Shown one piece after another: positions 10,582 through 58,180 of a DNA stretch of 64,000 nt; position 1 is the first letter of the stretch; each line of letters starts with the position of its first letter. The DNA comes from Fimbriimonadaceae bacterium (GTDB taxonomy: Bacteria; Armatimonadota; UBA10988). Under the pieces are notes generated by a model. It was not told where the DNA came from. It saw only the letters and a list, made by a program, of their open reading frames with translations, and made no database searches. Location: NCBI GenBank assembly GCA_020850355.1, contig JADZEX010000067.1, positions 1 through 64,000 of the forward strand, written 5' to 3'. The position numbers were made by a program, and so were the translations under genes.

Positions 10582-12144
10582 CTACCCGGCCGTGCCTTCG
10601 CCGAGGCCGGCCCACGGCAAGGTCGAGCTGACTGGCCGGCCGACCACGAGCTGGCCGCCGGCGACGTAGCCTTCCGGCCGGTCTTGCAGCTCGCCGACCA
10701 GCCGTTGGCGCCAGGTGGTGACCTCGGCGGGGCGCGCTGCGGCCAGGTCGTGGCGGTCGGTCGGGTCGCTGACCAGGTCGAAGAGCTGCTCGCGGCCGCT
10801 CTGCGAGAACCAGATGTAGCGCTGGCGGCCGTCGGTCAGCCAGTGGTTGCTGAGCGGCCCGGCGGCGTGCTCACCGTGCAGCCACGGCCGCCACGCCGGC
10901 TGCTCGCCGCGGGTGAACGGCAGCAGACTGGCACCGTCCAGACCGGCGGGCCGCGGCAGCCCGGCCAGGTCGCAGAAGGTCGGGAAGATGTCGCGCAGCG
11001 CGACCGGCCGGTCGACCACCGTGCCGGCCCCGGCCTGCTGCGGCAGACGGAGCAGCAACGGCACCCGGGCGGAGGCGTCGTAGGGCAGCGACTTGGCGAC
11101 ATGATGGTGGTCGAAGAGCATCTCGCCATGGTCGGCGACGAAGCAGATCGCGGTGTTGTCCAGCACGTTGTGCTCGTAGAGTGTCATCACCAGCCGGTTG
11201 AGCTGGTGATCGATATGGCTGAGTTGGGCGTAGTAGGCCCGCCGGGCGAGGTCGATCTCGTCGGCCGACTGGGGCACCGGGCTGTCGAAACCGCGCTGCG
11301 GCGGCAACTGATGATCGACCCAGTCGCCCAGGTTGATCGGCGGCAGGGACTTCCGCAGGTAACGGTCGAGGCACCAGCGCGGCGGATCCAGCGGGGGATG
11401 CGGGCGGTGGAAGCTGGCCATCAGGAAGAACGGCTTGCTGGTGTCCCGGCGGCGTAGGAAGTCGATGGACTCGGTGACCACCCAGGACGAGGGATGCAGC
11501 AGGTCGTCGTAGGTCCAGGGCCGCACGGCGTAGCCGTTGCAGCCGAGCCCGGTGTCGATGTGGTCGGCGTAGCCGCTGCCGAGGCGCTGGCGCAGCCAGA
11601 CGGTGTAGTCGTCGATCTGCCCGAACTCCGGCCACTGCCGGCGCTCGAAGTGGGTGTAGCCGTCGTGCAGCACGACGTTGTGGAAGCCCAGCAGATTGCG
11701 CGGCGGGTGCACGTGCATCTTGCCGACGCAGGTGGTGTGGTAGCCGCCGGCCGCCAGCGTCCCGGCGAGGGTCGTGGCATAGCGCCAGGGCACCCCATCG
11801 CGGTAACCGACGAAGCCGTTGTGGCGGGGGCTAAGCCCGGTGAACAGCGCGGCGCGCGCGGCGATGCAGCTTGGACAGGCGGCGTAGGCCTGTGTGAAGC
11901 GGGTGCCGCTGCGGGCCAGCAGGTCGAGGTGCGGGGTCTCGACAGTCGGGTGGCCGGCCACGCCGAGCGCGTCGCCGCGCCACTGGTCGACCACAAGCAG
12001 CAGCAGATTCGGACGTTCGGTGGGCACGGCGGACTCCTCCGGGCGCGGCGAGCGGCTCGCCTGGCTGGCGGCGGGCCGCGGGGCGAGACCACCCAGGGCG
12101 GCGGCACCGACGGTGGCCAGGAACTGCCGGCGAGCGGTGGACAT
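10582..12144 (-). CDS. Tat-exported type I sulfatase
   Basis: Start at 12144: AGGAG precedes the ATG and a Tat signal begins (TARRQFLATVGAAALGG). The mature domain opens with RPNLLLLVVDQWRGDALG, the metal-binding start of alkaline-phosphatase-superfamily sulfatases, followed by TPHLDLLARSGTRFTQAY. The active-site segment reads CPSCIAARAALFTGL: Cys-x-Ala-Ala-Arg in place of the classical Cys-x-Pro-Ser-Arg. Further family marks are GKMHVHPP, FVADHGEML and HGEHAAG. The Cys would need conversion to formylglycine. It probably desulfates a sulfated glycan handled together with the glycosidase downstream, with which it is co-transcribed. The 520-residue length is normal for the family. Confidence 0.85.
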   Translation of the reverse strand: MSTARRQFLATVGAAALGGLAPRPAASQASRSPRPEESAVPTERPNLLLLVVDQWRGDALGVAGHPTVETPHLDLLARSGTRFTQAYAACPSCIAARAALFTGLSPRHNGFVGYRDGVPWRYATTLAGTLAAGGYHTTCVGKMHVHPPRNLLGFHNVVLHDGYTHFERRQWPEFGQIDDYTVWLRQRLGSGYADHIDTGLGCNGYAVRPWTYDDLLHPSSWVVTESIDFLRRRDTSKPFFLMASFHRPHPPLDPPRWCLDRYLRKSLPPINLGDWVDHQLPPQRGFDSPVPQSADEIDLARRAYYAQLSHIDHQLNRLVMTLYEHNVLDNTAICFVADHGEMLFDHHHVAKSLPYDASARVPLLLRLPQQAGAGTVVDRPVALRDIFPTFCDLAGLPRPAGLDGASLLPFTRGEQPAWRPWLHGEHAAGPLSNHWLTDGRQRYIWFSQSGREQLFDLVSDPTDRHDLAAARPAEVTTWRQRLVGELQDRPEGYVAGGQLVVGRPVSSTLPWAGLGEGTAG

Positions 12145-12210
12145 GGACGCTCCTGCGGCTGAATGCGCCAACCGCGGCGCGGTTCCTGCCGTGCGGTGGC
12201 GCCGCAAGAC

Positions 12211-12219
12211 TGGTATGAT
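12211..12219 (+). promoter_or_regulatory. Extended -10 promoter element for the B12-binding photosensor-like gene
   Basis: TGG followed by TATGAT (12214-12219) is an extended -10 element (TGnTATGAT) lying about 60 bases before the ATG at 12277, in the gap between two divergent genes. I see no good -35 box, as expected for extended -10 promoters. Confidence 0.45.
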
Positions 12220-12276
12220 GGCGTGGCGATTCGACAGGCACAGCGACAGGGGCGGGAAAGGGCCAGGCAGCGGGGC

Positions 12277-13350
12277 ATGGACGCTGACATTGGGCGGCAA
12301 GCGGCGACGCGGATCCGGTTGGACCAGTGGACCCTGGCGGTGCATGCCGTCGAGCGGCAGTACGCCGCGCAGCCGCAGTTGTGGGGCCGGTACGGCAGCA
12401 GTGGTCTGGAGGCCAGCCGCCGCGACACGGCGGCGACGCTGAACTACCTCGCGGCGGCGCTCGATGCGCTGGACCCAGGCGTCTTCCGCTGCTACGCCGT
12501 CTGGCTCCGTGACCTGTTGGTCAGCCGCGACCTGGGTGGCGAGCTGACCACGCACTTCGACGTCCTGCGCAATGTGCTGGGCGAACGCCTGCCCGCCCGC
12601 GAAGCGGCCCTGGCCGGGTACTACCTCTCCGAGGCGGCTGGCGCGCTGGCCGCTCCCACCGCACCACCCGAGCCGCCGGCGACCGGCCGCGATCCATGGG
12701 CCGAGCTACGTCAGAACTGGCTCGACCGGCTGCTGGCCGCGGACCGCCGGGGGGCTCTGGACCTGGTTCGGAGCGCCGTGCAGGGCGGCACCAGCGTGGC
12801 GGAGCTGTACCTGCAGGTGTTCCAGCCGGGCCTGCGCGAAGTTGGCCGGCTGTGGCATCTCAGCCGGGTCACGGTGGCCCACGAGCACTACGTCTCCGCG
12901 GCGACTGGCTGGCTGATGGGGCAGTTGCAGGCGCACGCCCCGACCGAGCCGGTCCACGGCCGGCGTTTCGTGGGGCTCTGTGTGGACGACGAGTTGCACG
13001 AACTGGGCCTGCGGATGGTCTGCGACTTCTTCGACTGGGCCGGCTGGGAGACGCACTTCCTGGGCGCCCGGACGCCGCGGCGCAGCGTGCCGCCGCTGGT
13101 CGAGGCGCTGCAGCCGGAGGTCGTCGGGATCTCCTGCACGCTGCCGATCCATGTCAGTTACTGCCGCGAGTTGGTGGCCGCCCTGCGCGCCAGCCCGGCC
13201 GGGCGGCAGGCCGTGGTGCTGGTCGGTGGGCAGGCCTTGCTGGCGCATCCTGGGCTGGCCCACCAGATCGGCGCCGACGCTGTCGGCAGCGATGCCGCCA
13301 GTGCCGTCAGCCAGGCCGAGCAACTGCTGGCAGCGCGCACCGCGGCTTGA
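12277..13350 (+). CDS. Cobalamin-binding protein with CarH-type light-sensing signature and no MerR domain
   Basis: The 357-residue protein has an all-helical N-terminal domain (about residues 1-125; DTAATLNYLAAALDALDPGV), a Pro/Ala linker, then a four-helix cobalamin cap and a Rossmann B12-binding domain. The cap carries Trp193-His194, nine residues between Trp193 and Glu203, then Glu203-His204. This is the W(x)9EH signature of the photoreceptor CarH, including the His that forms the light adduct. The B12 domain has Glu239-Leu-His241-Glu-Leu-Gly244, the ExHxxG variant used by CarH instead of DxHxxG. CarH normally has an N-terminal MerR DNA-binding domain; here it is replaced. Its output is therefore unknown, perhaps protein-protein contact. 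The ATG at 12277 is the only good start; divergent from the sulfatase operon. Confidence 0.8.
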   Translation: MDADIGRQAATRIRLDQWTLAVHAVERQYAAQPQLWGRYGSSGLEASRRDTAATLNYLAAALDALDPGVFRCYAVWLRDLLVSRDLGGELTTHFDVLRNVLGERLPAREAALAGYYLSEAAGALAAPTAPPEPPATGRDPWAELRQNWLDRLLAADRRGALDLVRSAVQGGTSVAELYLQVFQPGLREVGRLWHLSRVTVAHEHYVSAATGWLMGQLQAHAPTEPVHGRRFVGLCVDDELHELGLRMVCDFFDWAGWETHFLGARTPRRSVPPLVEALQPEVVGISCTLPIHVSYCRELVAALRASPAGRQAVVLVGGQALLAHPGLAHQIGADAVGSDAASAVSQAEQLLAARTAA

Positions 13351-13375
13351 CGCGAGGCCGCCGCCGGGGTATCGT
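13347..13375 (+). promoter_or_regulatory. Sigma-70 promoter whose -35 box contains the upstream stop codon
   Basis: TTGACG (13347-13352), a 17-base spacer, then TATCGT (13370-13375). The TGA inside the -35 box is the stop codon of the B12-binding gene. Transcription should begin near 13382, about 20 bases before the transaldolase ATG. Confidence 0.5.
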
Positions 13376-13401
13376 GCCAGCGGCAGCGATGAGGTAGTGG
13401 C

Positions 13402-14067
13402 ATGAAGATCTTCCTGGATACCGCGGTGCTCGACGAGATCCGCGAAGTCGCTTCTTGGGGCATTCTCGACGGCGTCACCACCAACCCGTCCCTGGCCGCC
13501 AAGGCCGGCCGGCCGTTCGAGCGCAACATCCGTGAGATCGCCGAGATCGTCGGCGAGCGCGGCACGGTGTCGGCCGAGACCGTCAGCACCGACGCCGCCG
13601 GGATGTTGCAGGAAGCCCGCCTCGTGACGAGCTGGGCCGGCAACATCGTCGCCAAGATTCCGTTTGGCGCCGAGGGTCTGAAGGCCGTCCGGCTGTGCGT
13701 CCAGGAGGGGATTCGCTGCAACGTCACGCTGATCTTCTCGGCGATGCAGGGGCTGCTGGCGATGAAGGCCGGCGCCTACTACATCTCGCCGTTCGTCGGC
13801 CGGATCGACGACGGTGGCCAGAACGGCATGGAGTGCGTCGAGCAGCTCTGCAAGCTGAAGAAGCTGTACGGCTTCGAGACGGCGGTGCTGTCGGCCAGCC
13901 TGCGCACCACCAACCACCTGATCGACTCCGCCCTGGCCGGCGCCGACATCGCGACGATGCCCTACAGCGTCTTGACGAAGGCCATCGGCCACCCGCTGAG
14001 CCGGGAAGGGCTGGCCAGCTTCTTGAAGGACTGGGCGACGATCCCCGAGGAGATGCGGCCGTTCTAG
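13402..14067 (+). CDS. Fructose-6-phosphate aldolase / TalC-type transaldolase
   Basis: The 221-residue protein is the short transaldolase subfamily: MKIFLDTAVLDEI, GILDGVTTNPSLAAK, AKIPFGAEGLKAV with the Schiff-base Lys in the AKIPF strand, NVTLIFSAMQGLLA, YISPFVGRIDD and PYSVLTKAIGHPL. These enzymes act on fructose 6-phosphate, dihydroxyacetone and glyceraldehyde 3-phosphate, or as transaldolase in the non-oxidative pentose phosphate pathway; the two activities cannot be told apart here. Length matches the family (about 215-220). It has its own promoter and ends at a strong hairpin terminator. Confidence 0.9.
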   Translation: MKIFLDTAVLDEIREVASWGILDGVTTNPSLAAKAGRPFERNIREIAEIVGERGTVSAETVSTDAAGMLQEARLVTSWAGNIVAKIPFGAEGLKAVRLCVQEGIRCNVTLIFSAMQGLLAMKAGAYYISPFVGRIDDGGQNGMECVEQLCKLKKLYGFETAVLSASLRTTNHLIDSALAGADIATMPYSVLTKAIGHPLSREGLASFLKDWATIPEEMRPF

Positions 14068-14087
14068 GCCTGCCCGGGGCCGTTTCA

Positions 14088-14117
14088 CGCGCCGGCCCGG
14101 CCGTCCGGGCCGGCGCG
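14088..14117. terminator. Bidirectional hairpin terminator between convergent genes
   Basis: A perfect 13-bp stem (CGCGCCGGCCCGG / CCGGGCCGGCGCG) with a CCGT loop sits between the stop codons of two convergent genes. There is no clear T-run, so it may work without a U tract or as a 3'-end stabiliser. Confidence 0.7.
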
Positions 14118-14130
14118 GCAGTTGGGGGGC

Positions 14131-15261
14131 TCAGTCGGCCAGCAGCAGCGCCAGCTTGAGCTCCCACCAGGCCGTCTCGGTGGCCTGCCAGGTGGCCAGC
14201 AGGCGCTCCTCAGCGGCGATGTCGCGCGCCGTGGTGGGGCCGCTGCCCGCAGCCTGCAGCCACTGCTGCAGCAACGCCAGCCGGGCGGCCTGGGCCTGCG
14301 CCAGGGCCGGTCGCGCGGCGACGGCGGCGGCCACCGTCCGGAGGGCCGCGGGATCGGCACCTTGCAGGCTGCGCGGGGTGCAGTCGGCGGCCTCGATGGC
14401 GGCCATCGCCTGCGTGGCGCGCTTCGCGAAGGTCTTCAGCACACTGGCGTTGGGCTGGCCGGGGAACTCCCAGAGGGCCAGCCGCAGGCGGGTCGTGCCG
14501 GGGGTCAGGGACAGGTTGAGGCTGCACGGATAGGCTTCCGCGACGAGCCTGGCGGTGGCCACGGCGGACGGTTGCCAGGCCACCGCGCAGGGCCCCTCGC
14601 CCTCACCGCGGGCGACGTCGAAGACCTCGTCGTAGAGCACACACCAGGCCGCCGCGGCGCCCGGCCAGGTCTGCTCCTGCCCCTGCGCCACGGTCCCTGC
14701 CGCGGTGCGCATCCGGCGGGCGCCGTCGCGCTGGTGCCAGCTTGTGAAATAGCTCGGGTAGGCCCGCAGCAGCACGTCGACCGCGCCGCCAGGCTGCCGC
14801 GGCTGCAGATCGATCTGCAGCGCCAGATGGTCGCTGCCGTCGACGCCAACGAAGCGGTAACGCAGGCTGCCGAAGTCGCCGTGCCAGACCAGGTCCAGGA
14901 TGCCGCGGGGACCGTCCTCGACCACCGCGATGCTGCTCAGTGGTCCGGTGTCGAGGCGCTGGCCGGCGAGCCGGGTCTCGATGAAGCCGCCGCCGTACCA
15001 GTTCTCGGTGCTGGGTGAGGGCAGCCCGACCGGGCCTTCGCCGACGTCGCCGAAGCTCGGGTCGGCCGGGTTGATGGTCCGGTTGTAGCGCACGGCGTAG
15101 GGCACCGCCAACCCGCCGAACCGCGCGTCGCAGGAGCGGCGGAGTTGCCCGGCGTACTGCGCGCCGCTGCGGGGGGACTCGTTCCAGGGCGTCAGATCGA
15201 CGCCTGCGCCCTCTGCCGGACCGAGTAGCAGGGCCGCCAGCCAGCCGTGGTACCAACGCAT
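14131..15261 (-). CDS. Secreted protein of unknown function
   Basis: I place the start at 15261, where GGGAG precedes the ATG and a short signal-peptide-like N-terminus begins (MRWYHGWLAALLLGPAEG). The 376-residue product reads as a beta-rich domain to about residue 270: PYAVRYNRTINPADPSFGDV, NWYGGGFIETRL, DHLALQIDLQPRQPGG, YPSYFTSWHQRDGARRM, RLALWEFPGQPNASVL. An Ala/Gln-rich helical C-terminus follows. I do not recognise the family. The phrases resemble lyase-associated or heparinase-like beta-sandwich proteins of polysaccharide-degrading bacteria, but this is only an impression. It faces away from manC across a 110-base divergent gap. Confidence 0.65.
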   Translation of the reverse strand: MRWYHGWLAALLLGPAEGAGVDLTPWNESPRSGAQYAGQLRRSCDARFGGLAVPYAVRYNRTINPADPSFGDVGEGPVGLPSPSTENWYGGGFIETRLAGQRLDTGPLSSIAVVEDGPRGILDLVWHGDFGSLRYRFVGVDGSDHLALQIDLQPRQPGGAVDVLLRAYPSYFTSWHQRDGARRMRTAAGTVAQGQEQTWPGAAAAWCVLYDEVFDVARGEGEGPCAVAWQPSAVATARLVAEAYPCSLNLSLTPGTTRLRLALWEFPGQPNASVLKTFAKRATQAMAAIEAADCTPRSLQGADPAALRTVAAAVAARPALAQAQAARLALLQQWLQAAGSGPTTARDIAAEERLLATWQATETAWWELKLALLLAD

Positions 15262-36386: not shown

Positions 36387-37493
36387 GTGACCTGGGAGCG
36401 TGACGTGCCGCAGCTTCTGGCAGCCAAGTTGGCGCGGGTGCGAGAGTACTTGCAGCGGGAAGCCCTCGACGCCGTGGTGGTGTCGCGGATCGACAATCTG
36501 TTCTGGCTGTGCCGGGCCGATACGCACGTCGGCCTGAACAGCGAGGCCGGCGTCGCCGCGCTGGTCGTGACGGCCGAGGCCGCAACGCTGGTCACCAGCA
36601 ACATCGAGGCACCTCGGTTGCAGCAGGAGGAGTTCGCCGTCTTCGGCTTGCCGCTGGTCAGCTTCCCGTGGTTCGAGGGCAGCACCGAGGCGGCGCTGGC
36701 GCCGCTGCTGGCGGGCTGCGGCGCGGTGGGCAGCGACACGCCAGCGCCGGGCCGGCAGTTGGTGAACCTGGCACCGCTGCGCTACCGGCTGTTCGAACCC
36801 GAGTTGACAGCTTACCGCGCGCTGGGCCACGAGGTCGGCGCGGCGGTCGGCCAGGTGGCACGCGAACTGCAGCGCGGTGAGACCGAGTTCGCGGTCGCTG
36901 GCCGGCTGTCGGCCGCGCTGCTGACGCGGGAGGTCACCCCGGTAGTCCTGCTGGTCGCCGCCGACCAGCGGCTGCGGGCCTACCGCCACCCGATCCCGAC
37001 GGCCCAACGGATCGACGAGCGAGTGATGTTGGTGGCAGTCGGGCGCCGCCAGGGGCTGACCGTGGCGGTCACCCGCCTGGTCAGCTTCGGACCGCTGAGC
37101 GATGATCTGCGCCGGCGCCACGCGGCGGTCACCGCAGTCGACGCGGCCTTCATCGCGGCGACGGTGCCAGGCGCGCCGGTCGCCAGCGTCTTCGCCGCCG
37201 GGGTGGCGGCTTACGGCGCGCAGGGCTACCCGGACGAGTGGCAACTGCACCACCAGGGCGGGGCGACGGGCTACGCCGGGCGGGACTACCGGGCGACCTT
37301 CCAGAGCACCGAGGTGGTCCAGCCGGGCCAGGCCTTTGCCTGGAACCCGTCGATCGCGGGAACCAAGTCGGAGGACACCATCCTGGCCTTGGAGAGCGGC
37401 CCGGAGGTGATTTCGGCCAGTCCCGACTGGCCGCTGCTGCCGGCCGAGGCCGGTGGCGTGCGGACCGCGCGGCCCGATTGGCTGGTCCGCTGA
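36387..37493 (+). CDS. M24 (creatinase/prolidase-fold) protein without the usual metal ligands
   Basis: The start is a GTG at 36387. The N-terminal half is the creatinase N-domain (RVREYLQREALDAVVVSRI, NLFWLCRADTHVGL), the C-terminal half the pita-bread domain (QLHHQGGATGYAGRDYR, QAFAWNPSIAGTKSEDTIL). In metal-dependent M24 peptidases the ligands are two Asp, one His and two Glu. Here the region that should read D-x-G...D-x-T is VAVGRRQGLTVAVTRLVSFG, without Asp. So a binuclear metal site is unlikely; it could be a metal-free hydrolase like creatinase or a binding protein. It shares a promoter with the sensor kinases that follow at 17 bases. Confidence 0.75.
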   Translation: MTWERDVPQLLAAKLARVREYLQREALDAVVVSRIDNLFWLCRADTHVGLNSEAGVAALVVTAEAATLVTSNIEAPRLQQEEFAVFGLPLVSFPWFEGSTEAALAPLLAGCGAVGSDTPAPGRQLVNLAPLRYRLFEPELTAYRALGHEVGAAVGQVARELQRGETEFAVAGRLSAALLTREVTPVVLLVAADQRLRAYRHPIPTAQRIDERVMLVAVGRRQGLTVAVTRLVSFGPLSDDLRRRHAAVTAVDAAFIAATVPGAPVASVFAAGVAAYGAQGYPDEWQLHHQGGATGYAGRDYRATFQSTEVVQPGQAFAWNPSIAGTKSEDTILALESGPEVISASPDWPLLPAEAGGVRTARPDWLVR

Positions 37494-37510
37494 AGCGACT
37501 GGAGAGGCCG

Positions 37511-39043
37511 GTGCGCGAGGCAGCCGCAACAGCTCTGGCAGCGCCTGACAAAGAGGCCCTCGAGTGGGCCGCGGCCGCGGCGCGTCTGGGTGGTTTCGAG
37601 CGCTGCCTGTTGCTCCGCTCCGAGGGCGCTACGCTGTGGGAGTATCCCAGCAGCGACGACGGGCTGCGGCTGCCGGTTGACGGGAGCTTCAGTGGGCGCT
37701 GCCTGAGTGGCGCGCGGGCGCAGTTTGCCGACTCCGCCGGCGATGCCCTGCATCCCCGGGAGCGTGCCGTACTGCGCGGCTGCAACGCCGACTATTGGGT
37801 CGCCCTGCCGGTGCTGGCAGCCAGCGGCGAGCCCTCGGGCGTGGTCGTCGGGCTGCGCCGTACCCCATTGGGCGTCGGCACCGGCGAACAAGAGCGCCTG
37901 ATGCTCTCCCTGCTGGCCGAGCATCTGGCCCTGATCTGGCGCAATGCCGACCTGGAACAGGCCCTGCTGGCCGCGCGCGAGCGGCGGCGCGAGTTGGAAG
38001 CCGAGTCCGCGGGGCTCTTGCAGAGCTTCCGCACGGCGGCCCTCGTACTGACGCCGGACCACCATATCGAAGCCGCCAATCAGGCTGCGGCCGGTCTGCT
38101 CGGGTTCGAGTTGGCGTCCGCCCGGGGTGAGTTGCTGACCACTGCCGCGAAGCACCAGGCGATCGCCGAGCTGATCACCACGGTCGACGCCACCGGCGGC
38201 GGCGAACTGCCAGCCGTGACGCTCGGCGACGAGGCCAAGACGGCCGTCGAGCTGCGGATCCACCCGGTCTTCGACAGTCGCGGCGAGCTGCGCCGGCGGG
38301 TCGTGGTGATCGAAGACACCACGCGCCAGAAGCAGGCAGACGCCCTCAAGACCGAGTTCGTGATGATGATCTCCCACGAGCTGCGGACGCCACTGACCAG
38401 CATCAAGGCCTTTGCCTCGACCCTCTTGCGGGACGACCTGGGGAGCCTCGCCGACCAACGCGAGTGGCTGCAGATCATCGACCGCGAGTGCGACCGGCTG
38501 ACCGCGCTGGTCAACGACCTGCTGGCCATCTCGCGCCTCGAGTCGGGCCAGAAGCTGCCGATGCAGTTCACCGAGTTCGACCTGGTGCCGCTGCTGCGCG
38601 AGGTCGTCGCGGCGCAGCGGGAGCACGCCACCAAGCACAGCTTCGAGCTGGCGCTGCCGGAGCGTCTGACTGCCGAGGCCGATGCCGAGAAGGTCCGGCA
38701 GATCTTCGCGAACCTGGTGAACAACGCCGTGAAGTACAGCCCGCGCGGCGGCTGCGTCACGGTCGCCGCCGCCGAACGCGGGGCGCAGGTCGAGATCAGC
38801 GTGCGCGACGAAGGAGTTGGCATCCGGGTGGAGCATCTCGACTTGATTTTCGAGAAGTTCTTTCAGGTCGACGGCTCCAGCACGCGCCGCGTCGGCGGGA
38901 CCGGGCTCGGCCTCTACCTGACACGGCGGCTGGTCGAAGCGCACGAGGGACGGATTTGGGTGGAGAGCGAGCCGGGCGCGGGGTCGACCTTCGTGGTGGC
39001 GCTGCCGCGACGGCGACATGTCCGGGATCGACTGGGGACCTGA
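37511..39043 (+). CDS. Sensor histidine kinase (GAF-PAS-HisKA-HATPase), soluble
   Basis: The GTG at 37511 follows GGAGAGG and the previous stop. No membrane segment is present. Residues 1-150 look like a GAF domain (GSFSGRCLSGARAQFADSAG, YWVALPVLAASGEPSGVVV). A short coiled coil and a PAS domain follow (170-270; FRTAALVLTPDHHIEAANQA). The H-box is FVMMISHELRTPLTSIKAF with His289. ATP-site boxes: NLVNNAVKYSPRG, VRDEGVGI, GGTGLGLYLTRRL. It should autophosphorylate in response to a cytoplasmic signal. No response regulator is adjacent, so the partner is elsewhere. The next gene, a related kinase, starts four bases later. Confidence 0.92.
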   Translation: MREAAATALAAPDKEALEWAAAAARLGGFERCLLLRSEGATLWEYPSSDDGLRLPVDGSFSGRCLSGARAQFADSAGDALHPRERAVLRGCNADYWVALPVLAASGEPSGVVVGLRRTPLGVGTGEQERLMLSLLAEHLALIWRNADLEQALLAARERRRELEAESAGLLQSFRTAALVLTPDHHIEAANQAAAGLLGFELASARGELLTTAAKHQAIAELITTVDATGGGELPAVTLGDEAKTAVELRIHPVFDSRGELRRRVVVIEDTTRQKQADALKTEFVMMISHELRTPLTSIKAFASTLLRDDLGSLADQREWLQIIDRECDRLTALVNDLLAISRLESGQKLPMQFTEFDLVPLLREVVAAQREHATKHSFELALPERLTAEADAEKVRQIFANLVNNAVKYSPRGGCVTVAAAERGAQVEISVRDEGVGIRVEHLDLIFEKFFQVDGSSTRRVGGTGLGLYLTRRLVEAHEGRIWVESEPGAGSTFVVALPRRRHVRDRLGT

Positions 39044-39047
39044 GGCG

Positions 39048-40772
39048 ATGACCACCTCCGACGGTTTCGATAACCAGGACCCGCCGGCCGGCCAGGACGA
39101 GCTGGCCCGGTTGCGGGCCGAGCTGGCGCGGGTGCAGAACGAGAACGACAAGCTCAAGAACGAGCTGGCCTCGCGCGCCCCGACGCCGCCGGAAGGCGCC
39201 GAGAAGGGTGCCCTGGCCGAGAACACCCTGCTGATCAGCGAGGTTGAGGTGCGCGGGGCGATCGCCCGCCAGTTGCGCAACGGGGCCCGCCTGCTGCAGG
39301 CCAGTCGCTGCGTCTACCTGCTGTTCGACAGTCGCGACGACCTGGTCGCGCAGCGGCCAGCGCTGGGGCTCGATGAGGAGCAGCTCGGGTTGTTCCGTTG
39401 CCGCACCGACCGCGGGGTGTCGGGCGAGGTCTTCCGGACGCGCAAGCCGGTGCGGATCGACGACCTCGATGACGCGCGCGCCGCAGAGGAGCCGTTGGCC
39501 GCCATCGGCTGCACCAACGGCATCTCGGTGCCGCTGTTGATCCAGATCCGCGACGAAGAGAACCGCGTGATCGACTCCAAGGCGATTGGAGTGATGTGGG
39601 TCATGAACCGCCGCGGCTCGGGCAAGTTCAGCGACGACGACGTGCGCCTGCTGACCGTCTTCGCCCGGCAGGTCGCCGCGGTGGTCGCCACCGCCGAGTA
39701 CTTCCGCGAGCTGACCCGGCAGAAGCAGACGTTGGTCGACACCCTCGAGAACCTCCCCGCCGGGATCGTCTTCGTCGGGCTCGACGAGCGCATCCAGTTG
39801 ATCAACGGCACCGCCCGCAAGCTCTTCGGGATCGCGGCCGACCGGGGCGTGGGCGAGCAGTACTACCGCGTGATGGCACACCAGCAGACCTGTGAGGTGC
39901 TGGGGGCGTCGCTGCGCGAAGACGAGGACAAGATCGCCAAGGCGCCGTTCGAGATCGAGGAAGAGGAGCGCGTCTATCAGATCCAGGCGGCCCGCGTCCG
40001 CGGCGGCGACGACGCCCTCAACGGGGTGGTCGCCGTGTTCGACGACGTCACCGAGATGCAGCGTCTGGATCAGATGAAGCAGGAGTTCGTGCAGACCTTC
40101 ACGGCCGAGTTGCTCGGCCCGTTGGCCAGCATTCACGGCTTCACGCAGATGCTGCAACGGATCGAGCCGGACGAGTTCGACGGCCTGATGCGGCGTGAGA
40201 TCCACGGTGTGATCGGCGACGAGTGCCAGCGGCTGCGGCGCCACATTCAGGACCTGCTGAACGTCTCGCGGCTGGAACAGGGCATCAAGCTGCACCTCAA
40301 CCTGTCGCAGATCGATCTCGCCGGCCTGGTCCGGCGGGTCGTCGAGCACGAGGCCAGTGTCGCGCGGCGGCACCAGTTCGAGCTCGAGCTGCCCGCCGAC
40401 CTGCCCGCCATCGTCGGTGACGAGCCGCGGCTGGAGGAAGTCTTCTTCAACCTCGTCAGCAACGCCATCAAGTACATGCCCGATGGCGGACCGGTCAAGG
40501 TGGTGGTCGGCCGGGAGAACGGCAACGTCCGGGTGGCCGTCACGGACCGCGGGCCGGGGCTGGCCAAGGAACTCCACGAGGCGGTTTTCCAGAAGTTTGC
40601 ACGGGTCCAGCAAAGCGATGACCGGGTGCGGGCCGGGCGGGGCATCGGGCTGTTCATCTCGCGCTTCTTCGTCGAGGCTCATGGCGGGCAGATCGGGCTC
40701 GACAGCGAGGTCGGGCAGGGCTCCACGTTCTGGTTCCGCGTGCCGTTGCAGGCGGCCACCAAAGAGGGTTGA
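39048..40772 (+). CDS. GAF-PAS histidine-kinase-like protein with degenerate H-box (pseudo-kinase)
   Basis: A coiled coil of about 45 residues (LRAELARVQNENDKLKNEL) precedes a GAF domain (residues 55-215; GVSGEVFRTRKPVRIDDLDD), a PAS domain (about 225-335; TLENLPAGIVFVGLDERIQL) and a HisKA/HATPase core. The H-box, which should read SHELRTPL, is TAELLGPL: Ala353 stands where the phospho-accepting His should be. The ATP site is intact (NLVSNAIKYMPDGG, TDRGPGL, GRGIGLFISRFF). So it may bind ATP but cannot autophosphorylate normally; a role as regulator or heterodimer partner of the preceding kinase is likely. An earlier in-frame ATG lies at 39018, inside the previous gene. Confidence 0.88.
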   Translation: MTTSDGFDNQDPPAGQDELARLRAELARVQNENDKLKNELASRAPTPPEGAEKGALAENTLLISEVEVRGAIARQLRNGARLLQASRCVYLLFDSRDDLVAQRPALGLDEEQLGLFRCRTDRGVSGEVFRTRKPVRIDDLDDARAAEEPLAAIGCTNGISVPLLIQIRDEENRVIDSKAIGVMWVMNRRGSGKFSDDDVRLLTVFARQVAAVVATAEYFRELTRQKQTLVDTLENLPAGIVFVGLDERIQLINGTARKLFGIAADRGVGEQYYRVMAHQQTCEVLGASLREDEDKIAKAPFEIEEEERVYQIQAARVRGGDDALNGVVAVFDDVTEMQRLDQMKQEFVQTFTAELLGPLASIHGFTQMLQRIEPDEFDGLMRREIHGVIGDECQRLRRHIQDLLNVSRLEQGIKLHLNLSQIDLAGLVRRVVEHEASVARRHQFELELPADLPAIVGDEPRLEEVFFNLVSNAIKYMPDGGPVKVVVGRENGNVRVAVTDRGPGLAKELHEAVFQKFARVQQSDDRVRAGRGIGLFISRFFVEAHGGQIGLDSEVGQGSTFWFRVPLQAATKEG

Positions 40773-53781: not shown

Positions 53782-53905
53782 CCGCCGCTCCAACCGGCAG
53801 TTCGCGGTCCGCCTGCCCCGTCCTTTCGACAACCTCGACGCATCAGGGCTGGCTAATGAGTTGCAGCGAGGTGGGGCGCGGGCGCACTGTGCAGAGGAGG
53901 CGCGG

Positions 53906-55009
53906 ATGACACCACGGGAGCGATTCCTGGCCTGCTACCGGTTTCAGCCGGTGGACCACGTGCCGGATCGCGAGTTTGGCTACTGGGACGACACGCTGCG
54001 GGTCTGGTGGGACCAGGGCCTGCCGCGCTGGGTCACCCACAACGGCCTGGCTGACCATTACTTCAAGTTCGAGCCGCGGGGCGGCGTGCCGCTGAACGTC
54101 GGTCTCCAGCCGGGGTTCGCCACCGAGGTGATGGAGACGCACGAGCGCTACCAGATCATCCGCGACGGCAATGGCGTGCTGCTGAAGCAGTTCACCGACG
54201 GCTCGAGCTCCATCCCACACTACCTGGAGTTCCCGCTTCAGACGCGCGCCGACTGGGAAGAGAAGTTCCTGCCGCGGCTGCAACTGGACCGCCTCTATCC
54301 GAGCAACTGGGAGCAGCTCAAGACGCGTTGGATGGAGCGCGAGTACCCGCTCGGCATCTCCTGCGGCAGCCTCTACGGCTGGTTGCGCAACTGGATGGGC
54401 CTGGAGGGCATCAGCATCGCGATTGGGACCGACCCGGCCTGGGTCGATGCGATGATGGAGCACCTCTGCCAGTTGACCTGTGCCGTGATTGCCCGCGCCG
54501 CGGCGGAGGTGGAGCTCGACTTCGCGACGTTCTGGGAGGATATGTCGGCGAACCACGGTCCGCTGATCTCACCAGCGATGTTCCGACGCCACATGACGCC
54601 GCGGTTGAAGCGCATCACCGACCTGCTGCGCGACCACGGTGTCGGGATCTTCGTGGTCGACAGCGATGGCAACATCAACCAGATTGTGGAGCCCTGGCTG
54701 GAGGGAGGCGTGAACTGCATGTTCCCCCTCGAGATCAACGGGGACAGCGATCCGGTCAAGCTGCGGGCGCGGTACGGGCAGCGGGTTCTGCTGAAGGGTG
54801 GGGTGGACAAGAACGCCCTGCGCGCTGGCCGGGCGGCGATCGACGCGGAGTTGGAGCGCATCGCGCCGGTGGTGGCGACCGGCGGTTACGTGCCGACCGT
54901 CGACCACCGGGTCCCACCAGACGTGACCTACGAGGACTACCTGTACTATCTGCGGGCGAAGCGGGAGCGGTTTGGGATCCCCGACCCCGGATTCGCGGAC
55001 GCCCCGTGA
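53906..55009 (+). CDS. URO-D-fold protein of the corrinoid methyl-transfer cluster
   Basis: The ATG at 53906 follows GAGGAGG. The 367-residue product has MTPRERFLACYRFQPVDHVP, RGGVPLNVGLQPGF, GSLYGWLRNWMGLEGISIAI, FWEDMSANHGPLISPAMFRR, GIFVVDSDGNINQIVEPWLE and GGYVPTVDHRVPPDVTYEDY. In MtaA-type enzymes the zinc ligands are His-x-Cys-Gly and a later Cys; here the equivalents read DSDG and TVDH, so no zinc site. This non-zinc URO-D subfamily is abundant in polysaccharide-degrading and acetogenic-like bacteria with corrinoid genes, and may demethylate an unknown substrate. First gene of the cluster. Confidence 0.8.
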   Translation: MTPRERFLACYRFQPVDHVPDREFGYWDDTLRVWWDQGLPRWVTHNGLADHYFKFEPRGGVPLNVGLQPGFATEVMETHERYQIIRDGNGVLLKQFTDGSSSIPHYLEFPLQTRADWEEKFLPRLQLDRLYPSNWEQLKTRWMEREYPLGISCGSLYGWLRNWMGLEGISIAIGTDPAWVDAMMEHLCQLTCAVIARAAAEVELDFATFWEDMSANHGPLISPAMFRRHMTPRLKRITDLLRDHGVGIFVVDSDGNINQIVEPWLEGGVNCMFPLEINGDSDPVKLRARYGQRVLLKGGVDKNALRAGRAAIDAELERIAPVVATGGYVPTVDHRVPPDVTYEDYLYYLRAKRERFGIPDPGFADAP

Positions 55010-55144
55010 TCGGGACCAGAGCGGCCCGAAAAGTCCACAAGGAATCGTTGATTCGACAGGCAGGAAGGCAGCAGGCGCTGGGGAAACCCAGCGGTGCCGC
55101 GCGGGCGGAGGCCGGCGTGGTTTCGGATGTAAGGAGGCTTCTCG
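55010..55144 (+). promoter_or_regulatory. Structured leader between the URO-D gene and the corrinoid protein gene
   Basis: The 135-base spacer is unusually long inside the cluster and contains a clean hairpin: GCTGGG, GAAA, CCCAGC (55077-55092), a six-pair stem closed by a GNRA tetraloop. A second small hairpin reads GAATC, GTT, GATTC (55042-55054). It ends in AAGGAGG, the ribosome site of the next gene. I find no B12-box consensus, so I do not call a cobalamin riboswitch; a regulatory leader or processing site is possible. Confidence 0.35.
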
Positions 55145-55777
55145 ATGGCTGATTTCGCCGCAATGCAGGAAGCGGTGATCAAGGGCAACCTCGGCGAGGC
55201 GACGCGCCTCACGCAGGAGGCCTTGGACGGCGGAACCGCGCCGGCCGCAATCGTCAATGAGGGACTGATCCCTGGGATGCTGGTGGTCGGTGAGCGCTTC
55301 AAGAACAACGAGTACTATGTTCCGGAAGTGCTGATCGCCGCGCGCGCCATGAAAGGCGCGATGGCGCTGGTGCAGCCGCATCTCAAGGAAGGCGACATCG
55401 AGCCGCTCGGCACGGTCGCCATCGGCACGGTGCAGGGCGACTTGCATGACATCGGCAAGAACCTCGTGGCGATGATGCTCGAGGGCGCCGGCTACAAGAT
55501 CGTCGACCTCGGCGTGGACGTCTCGCCGGAGAAGTTCATCGACGCCGTGCAGTCGCAGGGAGTCACGGTGATCGCGCTGTCGGCGCTGCTGACGACCACC
55601 ATGCCCTCCATCGGCAAGACCATCGAGGCGCTCAACGCCGCGGGTCTGCGCGAGAAGGTCACGGTGATCATCGGCGGTGCCCCGGTCACCGAGGCGTATC
55701 GTAAGGAAGTCGGCGCCGACGCCTACGCTCCCGACGCGGGGAGCGCGGTCGAAGCGCTGAAGGGCCTGGCCGCCTAG
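55145..55777 (+). CDS. Corrinoid carrier protein (MtaC/MttC/MtbC type)
   Basis: The protein of 210 residues has the two expected parts: a helical cap (EAVIKGNLGEATRLTQEALD, IVNEGLIPGMLVVGERFKNN, YYVPEVLIAARAMKGAM) and a B12-binding Rossmann domain with GTVQGDLHDIGKNLVAMML, where Asp99-x-His101-x-x-Gly104 is the DxHxxG motif whose His coordinates cobalt. VIALSALLTTTMPSIGKTIE and IIGGAPVTEAYRKEVGADAY complete it. It carries a methyl group on cobalt between methyltransferases. Length and order are typical of stand-alone carriers in methanol, methylamine and O-demethylase systems. AAGGAGG lies nine bases before the ATG. Confidence 0.95.
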   Translation: MADFAAMQEAVIKGNLGEATRLTQEALDGGTAPAAIVNEGLIPGMLVVGERFKNNEYYVPEVLIAARAMKGAMALVQPHLKEGDIEPLGTVAIGTVQGDLHDIGKNLVAMMLEGAGYKIVDLGVDVSPEKFIDAVQSQGVTVIALSALLTTTMPSIGKTIEALNAAGLREKVTVIIGGAPVTEAYRKEVGADAYAPDAGSAVEALKGLAA

Positions 55778-55786
55778 TTGCGCGCT

Positions 55787-55836
55787 AGCCCCGCGGGTCG
55801 CGCTCTGCTGCGGCGACGGGCGCGGTCCGCGGGGCT
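55787..55836 (+). other. Long inverted repeat between corrinoid protein and MtaA-like genes
   Basis: AGCCCCGCGG (55787-55796) and CCGCGGGGCT (55827-55836) are exact reverse complements around a 30-base loop that itself can pair (GTCGC...GCGAC). It begins ten bases after the corrinoid protein stop. No T-run follows; it could be an intercistronic stabiliser or attenuator that makes the carrier more abundant than the enzymes. Confidence 0.5.
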
Positions 55837-55929
55837 CTCCACTGGTCGTGTCGGCTCGCTGCCGGTCTACCGGCGGCGACGGTTGGTTGGTGCCTGCTGG
55901 TCCACCGAGTCCTAAGGTTGGAGGTCCCG

Positions 55930-57291
55930 ATGGCCGTCTCTCCCCGTGAACTGCTGCACGCTGCGCTGCACCGGCAACCCACCGCGCGCACGCCCTGGGT
56001 GCCGTACGTCGGCTGCCACGGCGGGCGGCTGATTGGGCGGAGCGCCGAGGAGTATCTGCGCAGCGCCGAGTTGATCGCTTACGGGGTCGCCACCGCGGCA
56101 CAGCGCTACCGCGCCGATGGCGTGCCGGTCGTCTTCGACCTGCAGATCGAGGCCGAGGCGCTGGGCTGCGAACTCGCCTGGTCGGAGGAGAATCCACCGG
56201 CGGTGATCTCGCACCCGCTGGCCCGCGGTACCCAGCTCGCGGATCTGGCGGTGCCCACCGCGGAGTCCGGTCGGCTGCCGATCGTGCTCGACGCGATCCG
56301 CCAGGCCCGCCGGCAGGTCGGTGACGAGGTCAGCCTGTTCGGCCTGATCACCGGCCCGTTCACCCTCGCCCTGCACCTCCTGGGGCCTGACATCTTCATG
56401 CAGATGTTCGACCAGCCGGAGCAGATTCAGGCGTTGATGCAGTTCACTCAGGAAGTCGGCCGGGCCGTCGCGGCGCTCTACATCGAGGCCGGCTGCGATG
56501 TCATCGCGGTGGTTGACCCGATGACCAGCCAGATCTCGCCGGGCCACTTCGAGGAGTTCGTGACCGCGCCAGCGCGCGCCATCTTCGCCGATCTGCGGCA
56601 GCGTGGCGTGCCCGGCTGCTTCTTCGTCTGCGGCGACGCGCAGCGCAACCTCGGCAAGATGGCCGAGTGCGGCCCGGAGGCGGTGTTTGTCGACGAGCAG
56701 ATCGATCTCGTGGCGATGGGCGAGATCGCCCGCCAGCACAACGTCGCCTTCGGCGGCAACATCCCGCTGACCACCGTGATGCTGTTCGGCAGCCAGGACG
56801 ACAACCGGCGCGCGGCGCGGGCCTGTCTCGACCAGGGTGGGGCGACCGGGTTCATCTTGGCGCCCGGCTGCGACATCCCCTACGCCGTGCCGCCCGAGAA
56901 CCTCGCGGCGATTGCCGAGGTCGTGCATGGCGAACACTCTGGCGTCGTGGCGGCCGGGGCCAGCACAGCGGTTGAGGTCGAGCTGCCCGACTACGCGACG
57001 CTCGGCCACGTGCAGGTCGACATCTTCACCCTCGACTCGGCGGCCTGCGCGCCGTGTCAGTACATGGTCGCGGCGGTCGAGAAGATCCTGCCGGAGTTCG
57101 CTGACAAGGTGCAGTGGAACGAGCTGAAGCTGAAGAGCCCCGAGACCGTCGCGCTGATGGGTGCGGTCGGGGTGACCTCGATTCCGTCGATTGCCATCGA
57201 CGGCGAGGTGGCTTTCAGCAGCCTGATTCCCGAACTCCGCGTGCTCCGCGACGCGGTGCGTGATAAGCTGTCGGCGAAGAGTCTGATCTAG
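55930..57291 (+). CDS. MtaA/MtbA-like URO-D methyltransferase fused to a thioredoxin-like CxxC domain
   Basis: ATG 55930 has GGAGG upstream. Residues 1-345 match MtaA/MtbA (methylcorrinoid:coenzyme M type) enzymes: DGVPVVFDLQIEAEALGCEL, LFGLITGPFTLALHLLG, DVIAVVDPMTSQISPGHFEE, and GFILAPGCDIPYAVPPENLA with the conserved zinc Cys. The HxCG zinc motif reads FVCG: Phe232 replaces the His, Cys234 is kept. Residues 365-450 form a thioredoxin-like domain (VQVDIFTLDSAACAPCQYMV with Cys373-Ala-Pro-Cys376, GVTSIPSIAIDGEV with a cis-Pro). A fused redox domain is unusual for MtaA proteins of about 340 residues. The methyl acceptor is unlikely to be coenzyme M in a bacterium. Confidence 0.85.
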   Translation: MAVSPRELLHAALHRQPTARTPWVPYVGCHGGRLIGRSAEEYLRSAELIAYGVATAAQRYRADGVPVVFDLQIEAEALGCELAWSEENPPAVISHPLARGTQLADLAVPTAESGRLPIVLDAIRQARRQVGDEVSLFGLITGPFTLALHLLGPDIFMQMFDQPEQIQALMQFTQEVGRAVAALYIEAGCDVIAVVDPMTSQISPGHFEEFVTAPARAIFADLRQRGVPGCFFVCGDAQRNLGKMAECGPEAVFVDEQIDLVAMGEIARQHNVAFGGNIPLTTVMLFGSQDDNRRAARACLDQGGATGFILAPGCDIPYAVPPENLAAIAEVVHGEHSGVVAAGASTAVEVELPDYATLGHVQVDIFTLDSAACAPCQYMVAAVEKILPEFADKVQWNELKLKSPETVALMGAVGVTSIPSIAIDGEVAFSSLIPELRVLRDAVRDKLSAKSLI

Positions 57292-57304
57292 CGGAGCCGA
57301 CAGG

Positions 57305-58180
57305 ATGCGGATCGATTTGCGGGAGCGCCTGGCCAGCGGCCGGGCGTTGGTCGTGGACGGGGCGACGGGCACGCAGCTCCAGGCGCGGGGGCTGCCCGCC
57401 GGGGCCTGCAGCGAGGGCTGGAATCTGGACCATCCCGACGCGGTCCGCGCGGTCGCTGCGGCCTACGCGGCGGCTGGCAGCGATCTGGTCTACAGCAACA
57501 GCTTCGGCGGCAACCCCTGGCGGTTGGCGCATCACGGGCTGGAGGGAGAGCTGGCGGCCCTCAACCGGCGGGCGGCCGAGCTGGCCCGCGAAGGCGTCGG
57601 CGACGACGTCTATGTCGCTGGCAGCATGGGCCCGACCGGCGACTTCCTGGCCCCCCTCGGCCTGCTGGAACCAGCGGCGGTGGAAGCGGCCTACGGCCAG
57701 CAGGCCGCCGCGCTGGTGGCCGGTGGTGCCGACGCCATCGTCTGCGAGACCTTCGCCGCCCTCGACGAACTGAGCGCCGCGGTGCGCGGTGCGCGGGCCG
57801 CCGTGGAGGTGCCGATCGTCGCGTCACTGACTTACGGTCGCGGTGGCCGGACGATGATGGGGGTCACCGCGACCGACGCCGTGCTGGCGCTGGTCGAGGC
57901 TGGGGCCGAGGTGATCGGTCTCAACTGCGGCGACGACCTGGAGGTCGTGCCGCTGGTGCTCGCCGCCTACCGTGCCACGGTGCCGGAGCTGCCGGTGCTG
58001 ATCAAGCCGAACGCCGGGATGCCGGCCATCGTCGCTGGGACGCCGGTCTGGCCGGTCGCGCCGGCGGAGTTCGGGCAGCTCGCGGCGGGTTGGCGCGCCG
58101 CGGGGGCCACGCTGCTAGGCGGCTGCTGCGGCACCAGCCCGGAGCATCTGGCGGCCGTCGCGGCCGCCGTGCGCCGCTAG
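57305..58180 (+). CDS. Zinc-dependent homocysteine S-methyltransferase
   Basis: The 291-residue protein equals the N-terminal module of MetH/BHMT/MmuM: ALVVDGATGTQLQARGL, DLVYSNSFGGNPWRLAHHGL, AGSMGPTGDFLAPLGLLEPA, ADAIVCETFAALDEL, and the three zinc Cys in VIGLNCGDD and LLGGCCGTSPEH. It would methylate homocysteine to methionine. It lacks the folate-, B12- and AdoMet-binding parts of MetH, so the methyl donor is probably the corrinoid protein encoded 1.5 kb upstream. Start follows the previous stop by 13 bases. Confidence 0.9.
   Translation: MRIDLRERLASGRALVVDGATGTQLQARGLPAGACSEGWNLDHPDAVRAVAAAYAAAGSDLVYSNSFGGNPWRLAHHGLEGELAALNRRAAELAREGVGDDVYVAGSMGPTGDFLAPLGLLEPAAVEAAYGQQAAALVAGGADAIVCETFAALDELSAAVRGARAAVEVPIVASLTYGRGGRTMMGVTATDAVLALVEAGAEVIGLNCGDDLEVVPLVLAAYRATVPELPVLIKPNAGMPAIVAGTPVWPVAPAEFGQLAAGWRAAGATLLGGCCGTSPEHLAAVAAAVRR

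Follow-up and report, generated by a model that had tools for sequence, protein, structure and literature searches.

We identify the 357-amino-acid product of the gene at 12277..13350 (+ strand) of the window, that is, the whole 64 kb stretch of DNA analysed here, as a standalone photocobilin in which a globin precedes the cobalamin-binding domain, an assignment that draws on comparison with its relatives and with characterised photoreceptors. The protein is likely to be a photoreceptor in which green light operates an adenosylcobalamin (AdoCbl)-dependent dimer switch, with a probable bilin as second chromophore and an output exerted in trans. It is a new orphan photocobilin, ordinary in kind and with useful specifics.

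Domain composition and light-signature residues

The open reading frame, its strand and its coordinates are confirmed. The GC content by codon position (0.77/0.52/0.88) follows the pattern of a coding frame and full-length relatives exist in Azospirillum (about 39% identity across 90% of the length), hence the gene is considered real; its start at 12277 matches the starts of the nearest relatives. An extended −10 promoter had been proposed from the letters alone, and TGGTATGAT at 12211..12219 (+), assigned by consensus only, is the sole extended −10 match in the 64 kb (0.12 expected), without a matching −35.

The C-terminal part consists of a four-helix cap (B12-binding_2, residues 146–210, 12712..12906, +; Pfam 8.9e-12) and a Rossmann B12-binding domain (residues 230–337, 12964..13287, +; 1e-15), both above cut-off. 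The cap carries G190-x-x-W193-H194 and E203-H204, the adenosyl-facing light signature, and the Rossmann domain carries the lower-ligand motif E239-L-H241-E-L-G244. W193-H194, E203-H204 and E239-x-H241-xx-G244 were verified by residue index and their spacing matches Thermus CarH, in which Trp131, His132, Glu141, His142 and His177 are the equivalents of W193, H194, E203, H204 and H241; all five are there. In the family of 15 members, window copy included, W193, E203, H204 and H241 are invariant. Each of the 15 has the W-x9-EH motif at the equivalent position, and it is missing from the corrinoid methyltransferase proteins examined and from MetH, which argues against a chance occurrence. Four light-signature motifs have been published, GxxW, EH, GxxH and GxxxP (PMC11796333), three of which are matched here (GxxW at G190, EH, and GxxxP at G263-P267), while DxxH replaces GxxH. 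The Gly that D238 replaces is kept in 12 of the 15 members; the idea that D238 is unique to the window protein was dropped, as the relatives in genomes G623 and G357 have N or R there.

The sequence-only reading had described a CarH-type AdoCbl sensor domain on a protein without a DNA-binding domain, and this stands: the adenosyl pocket and lower-ligand residues are present, and Pfam gives no match to an HTH or MerR DNA-binding domain in the window protein. Orthology to CarH is rejected, given the missing MerR/HTH domain and a score of 45.5 bits against the CarH equivalog model NF052513 (cut-off 400 bits). In a phmmer search of the PDB, the best matches of the window protein are to SasPcob (8j2w/8j2x, 7e-20), followed by CtMerR (8jbs, 8e-17) and AbPcob (8j2y, 1.2e-15), with Thermus thermophilus CarH weaker at 2.6e-4 to 4.3e-4.

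The N-terminal region (approximately residues 1–125, 12277..12651, +) is identified as a photoglobin, a phycobiliprotein-type globin, and thus a probable second chromophore (light-absorbing) domain. This assignment is based on a family profile, the window sequence alone being too diverged: residues 1–136 alone match no Pfam family and reach only E 0.29 against the PDB. A profile of nine N-terminal regions matches allophycocyanin best (2.5e-7), and also phycocyanin, the globins of SasPcob (3e-6) and AbPcob (2.3e-5), and smURFP (2.5e-5); Pfam Phycobilisome matches four of the nine members, at best with 6.2e-11. These matches to phycobiliproteins and the SasPcob globin contradict the earlier deduction from the N-terminal 125 residues that the output must be new; the profile search proposed with it, run with the family profile, gives a phycobilin-type globin shared with photocobilins. 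Single-sequence AlphaFold models (pLDDT 42 for the full protein, 54 for residues 1–136) are too poor for testing the fold, and the top Foldseek match of the 1–136 model, allophycocyanin 1b33 (E 0.54, TM 0.29), is weak and not counted as evidence.

Against SasPcob, the family profile matches both domains in swapped order (3e-44 overall, 8e-5 for the globin part). In the numbering of the SasPcob paper, which is the chain index +6 as verified with Trp61 and Glu71-His72, Asp270 aligns with D50 and Trp296 with W76 of the window protein, both invariant in the 15 members. Asp270 and Trp296 are biliverdin contacts, Asp270 being described as a bilin-ring contact (PMC10979010). Where phycobiliproteins have C-x-R-D, the window protein has S47-R48-R49-D50 and hence no CxRD with a chromophore-attaching Cys; the attachment position (three residues before D50; Cys84) is Ser here, whereas the four copies from Azospirillum, the two from Skermanella and those of G084 and G623 have Cys.

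The assignment as a globin-first standalone photocobilin follows from the globin profile matches and from D50 and W76 falling on biliverdin contacts. Three features by which photocobilins are recognised were found: a B12 domain (cap and Rossmann, W-x-EH, E/DxH), a photoglobin in the same chain (through the family profile) and equivalents of Asp270 and Trp296. The architecture itself is already known, since both domain orders are published, some photocobilin groups having the AdoCbl domain N-terminal and others C-terminal (Zhang et al. 2024, PMC10979010). SasPcob of Saccharothrix syringae (8J2W/8J2X, PMC10979010) shares both domains, the W/EH/ExH residues and the lack of a fused output, whereas its domain order is reversed, it has Gln where the window protein has His after the signature Trp, and it has the Gly of GxxH where the window protein has D238. 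AbDPcob, a photocobilin-diguanylate cyclase from an Acidimicrobiaceae bacterium (8J2Y), shares the CBD and photoglobin; however, its chain includes a GGDEF domain and its biliverdin Asp is replaced by His, while the window protein keeps the Asp and has no fused enzyme. T. thermophilus CarH (5C8A-F) shares W-x9-EH, ExHxxG and the His after Trp (equivalent to His132), but carries a MerR domain that the window protein lacks. BBAG-2/photoglobins are likewise bilin-binding globins linked with B12-binding proteins and have no CxRD motif, but they are separate globins with a heme oxygenase association in the genome (PMC10151467). The Azospirillum and Skermanella proteins named ‘cobalamin-dependent protein’ (for example WP_109331679.1 and WP_203101805.1) have the same length, order and key residues, at 35–40% identity; they differ in having Cys at the Cys84 place and Gln, Met or Thr for His194, and a kinase adjoins the Azospirillum copies.

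The residue following the signature Trp is, in TtCarH, the His that comes to serve as second axial ligand; this position is Gln in SasPcob, Tyr in AbDPcob and Arg in CtMerR (PMC11796333). Among the 15 family members, His is found there in the window copy only (His194), making it the one member whose sequence would allow a possible CarH-type bis-His light state.

Relatives, neighbouring genes and output

Full-length co-linear relatives are found on Azospirillum and Skermanella megaplasmids (33–40% identity over 86–90% of the query) and in five further genomes of the same phylum; a sample of 400 genomes from the phylum to which an Anaerolineales genome belongs yielded three more genomes with such relatives. 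None was found in three same-family genomes and one same-order genome, and a scan of genome contigs returned two distant corrinoid proteins only. In the tree, the window protein joins Skermanella weakly (82/92) on a long branch, a placement not used as evidence. Other combinations of B12-binding domains were also seen. Fusions of an ArsR-like HTH to a B12-binding domain are common in the phylum (loci L012–L017, L019–L021 and L027; Pfam-confirmed in L012, L015, L019 and L021, the others by eye), and those at L017, L019 and L021 contain W-x9-EH and could be light-responsive regulators. At L070, L075, L086 (and L087), from the sampled genomes of the Anaerolineales phylum, a B12 protein with a CarH-like W-H...EH directly precedes a gene encoding as many as three phycobilin-type globin domains in tandem, that is, a split photocobilin with several globins.

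For 12 of the 15 photocobilin genes of the family, the next downstream gene encodes a histidine kinase or a diguanylate cyclase and in several cases overlaps the photocobilin gene (loci L048, L049, L050, L051, L090, L091, L092, L093, L038, L039, L042 and L043). The neighbour is a HisKA kinase in G084, G253, G079, G080, G081, G592 and the four Azospirillum records, a HisKA_2 kinase in G357 and an unfused GGDEF diguanylate cyclase in G623. Despite their differing catalytic domains, most of these effectors have in common an N-terminal helix, RLNNELAxxQRxLAKxN, with a weaker match in G253 and G592. This suggests that the helix may be a docking element, although such helices may be common in kinases; the idea is consistent with published in-trans action, as Zhang et al. 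report AdoCbl photolysis, monomerisation and in-trans activation of a separate diguanylate cyclase for photocobilins (PMC10979010). A protein partner had been among the outputs suggested for the window protein, and the effector genes adjoining most relatives favour it.

No effector gene adjoins the window copy or the two Skermanella copies, and no RLNNELAxxQRxLAKxN protein was recognised in the rest of the window's genome, where the candidates returned as motif-profile matches are ordinary PAS/GAF-type kinases without the helix and were rejected. Two consecutive PAS/GAF histidine kinase frames lie in the window at 37106–40769; at 24 kb from the photocobilin gene and of ordinary type, they were also set aside as effectors. 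The description of the gene as standing alone holds in that the protein has no fused output domain. A same-strand transaldolase/fructose-6-phosphate aldolase gene (TAL_FSA, 13402..14067, +) begins 51 bp downstream. This gene, possibly cotranscribed with the photocobilin gene, occupies the place of the kinase or diguanylate cyclase of most relatives; no terminator-like site was found in 12100–14200. The divergent sulfatase gene upstream (10585..12147, −; PF00884, 1.2e-45) is outside the photocobilin system. Farther along the window, 53861–58177 is likely a corrinoid methyl-transfer cluster, in which an MtbC-type corrinoid protein (55145–55774) lies between two probable UroD-type genes and a probable homocysteine methyltransferase gene, all names but that of the corrinoid protein being assigned by eye. 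In the same genome (G000), contig C65 carries at approximately 68–75 kb a cluster of four genes with B12-binding domains, their frames measuring about 495–645 aa (L052).

Chromophore supply and alternative explanations

AdoCbl can be made in the organism, since its genome encodes a PduO-type adenosyltransferase (1.4e-47). The heme oxygenase family PF01126 is absent from the nine photocobilin genomes searched, namely that of the window (G000) and G084, G253, G079, G080, G081, G623, G357 and G592, four of which are 98–100% complete; control genomes gave matches, showing that the search works. PF01126 is found in only eight of 291 genomes of the phylum, none of them a photocobilin genome, so its absence is the norm and no specific signal by itself. 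A HugZ-type match above cut-off is also lacking in the window's genome, and no PHY-domain phytochrome, sought as a sign of bilin use, was found; these negative results count against the biliverdin part of the favoured mechanism. The invariant bilin Asp would then reflect either bilin uptake, a non-canonical enzyme, another tetrapyrrole or a different role of this Asp.

It is accordingly a serious contender, to which we give somewhat less than even weight, that the protein is a green-light AdoCbl switch only, with the globin serving as a packing or docking domain and carrying no bilin in this organism. This variant of the favoured mechanism differs from it on the bilin. The missing heme oxygenase in the nine genomes, including the four nearly or fully complete ones, and the Ser at the phycobiliprotein attachment place are in line with it, as is AbPcob, which binds biliverdin poorly yet switches enzyme activity (PMC10979010); W76 could be kept through corrin contact alone. 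The invariance of D50 in the 15 members points the other way, SasPcob Asp270 being the described bilin-ring contact.

That the protein senses the level of AdoCbl or a redox state rather than light is improbable. As photolability of AdoCbl is common to many proteins, a biological light role is not proven by the signature residues on their own, and B12 is used by other proteins of the genome; however, the adenosyl pocket, through which photolysis leads to loss of the dimer in CarH and SasPcob, is made up of W193 and E203-H204, and the fusion to a bilin-type globin points to light. Action on the adjoining sugar-phosphate aldolase/transaldolase or its pathway is very improbable: the common strand, the 51 bp gap and the lack of a terminator-like site would allow cotranscription, but the pairing is not seen beside relatives with annotated or called neighbours. 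A role as corrinoid carrier of a methyltransferase is rejected, as its NCBIfam MtbC/MtgC matches (9.5e-11) are far below the cut-offs (41.6 versus 350 bits), W-x9-EH is missing in the carrier proteins examined, no methyltransferase gene adjoins and the globin domain would be left unexplained.

Proposed mechanism and implications

For the favoured photocobilin mechanism, the domain composition, the conserved residues, the effector neighbours of relatives and the lack of such a neighbour here are seen in the sequences, and the photochemistry, dimer switch, bilin coupling and trans output are modelled on characterised photocobilins and CarH. In the dark, the C-terminal domain would bind AdoCbl base-off via His241, with W193 and E203-H204 surrounding the adenosyl group, and the AdoCbl-bound protein would form a head-to-tail dimer. 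Green light would break the Co–C bond, shifting the E203-H204 helix and splitting the dimer. The N-terminal globin is predicted to pack beside the corrin, where D50 and W76 probably hold a linear tetrapyrrole that would widen the usable light towards red. The change between monomer and dimer would be read in trans by an effector protein and not through DNA binding. Points against this mechanism are the missing heme oxygenase, the DxxH in place of GxxH, the dependence of the globin assignment on the family profile and the lack, in this genome, of a recognised effector gene with the shared helix.

More tentatively, and as an idea about which we are rather doubtful, globin-first photocobilins may be detachable light-sensing subunits for interchangeable effectors (HisKA, HisKA_2, diguanylate cyclase), reached via the RLNNELAxxQRxLAKxN helix, and rely on a tetrapyrrole that is imported or of another kind, or on none at all, in organisms with no biliverdin made by known heme oxygenases. 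The window copy would be an orphan whose CarH-like His194 could give rise to a bis-His light state not known from photocobilins.

The analysis settles the identity of the N-terminal domain and assigns the protein to an established family of photoreceptors. Its relatives, for which a candidate partner gene and helix can be named, make signalling by standalone photocobilins testable, as well as photoglobin function without heme oxygenase and a CarH-type light state arising from His194 in a photocobilin, all of which are relevant for red/green optogenetic tools.
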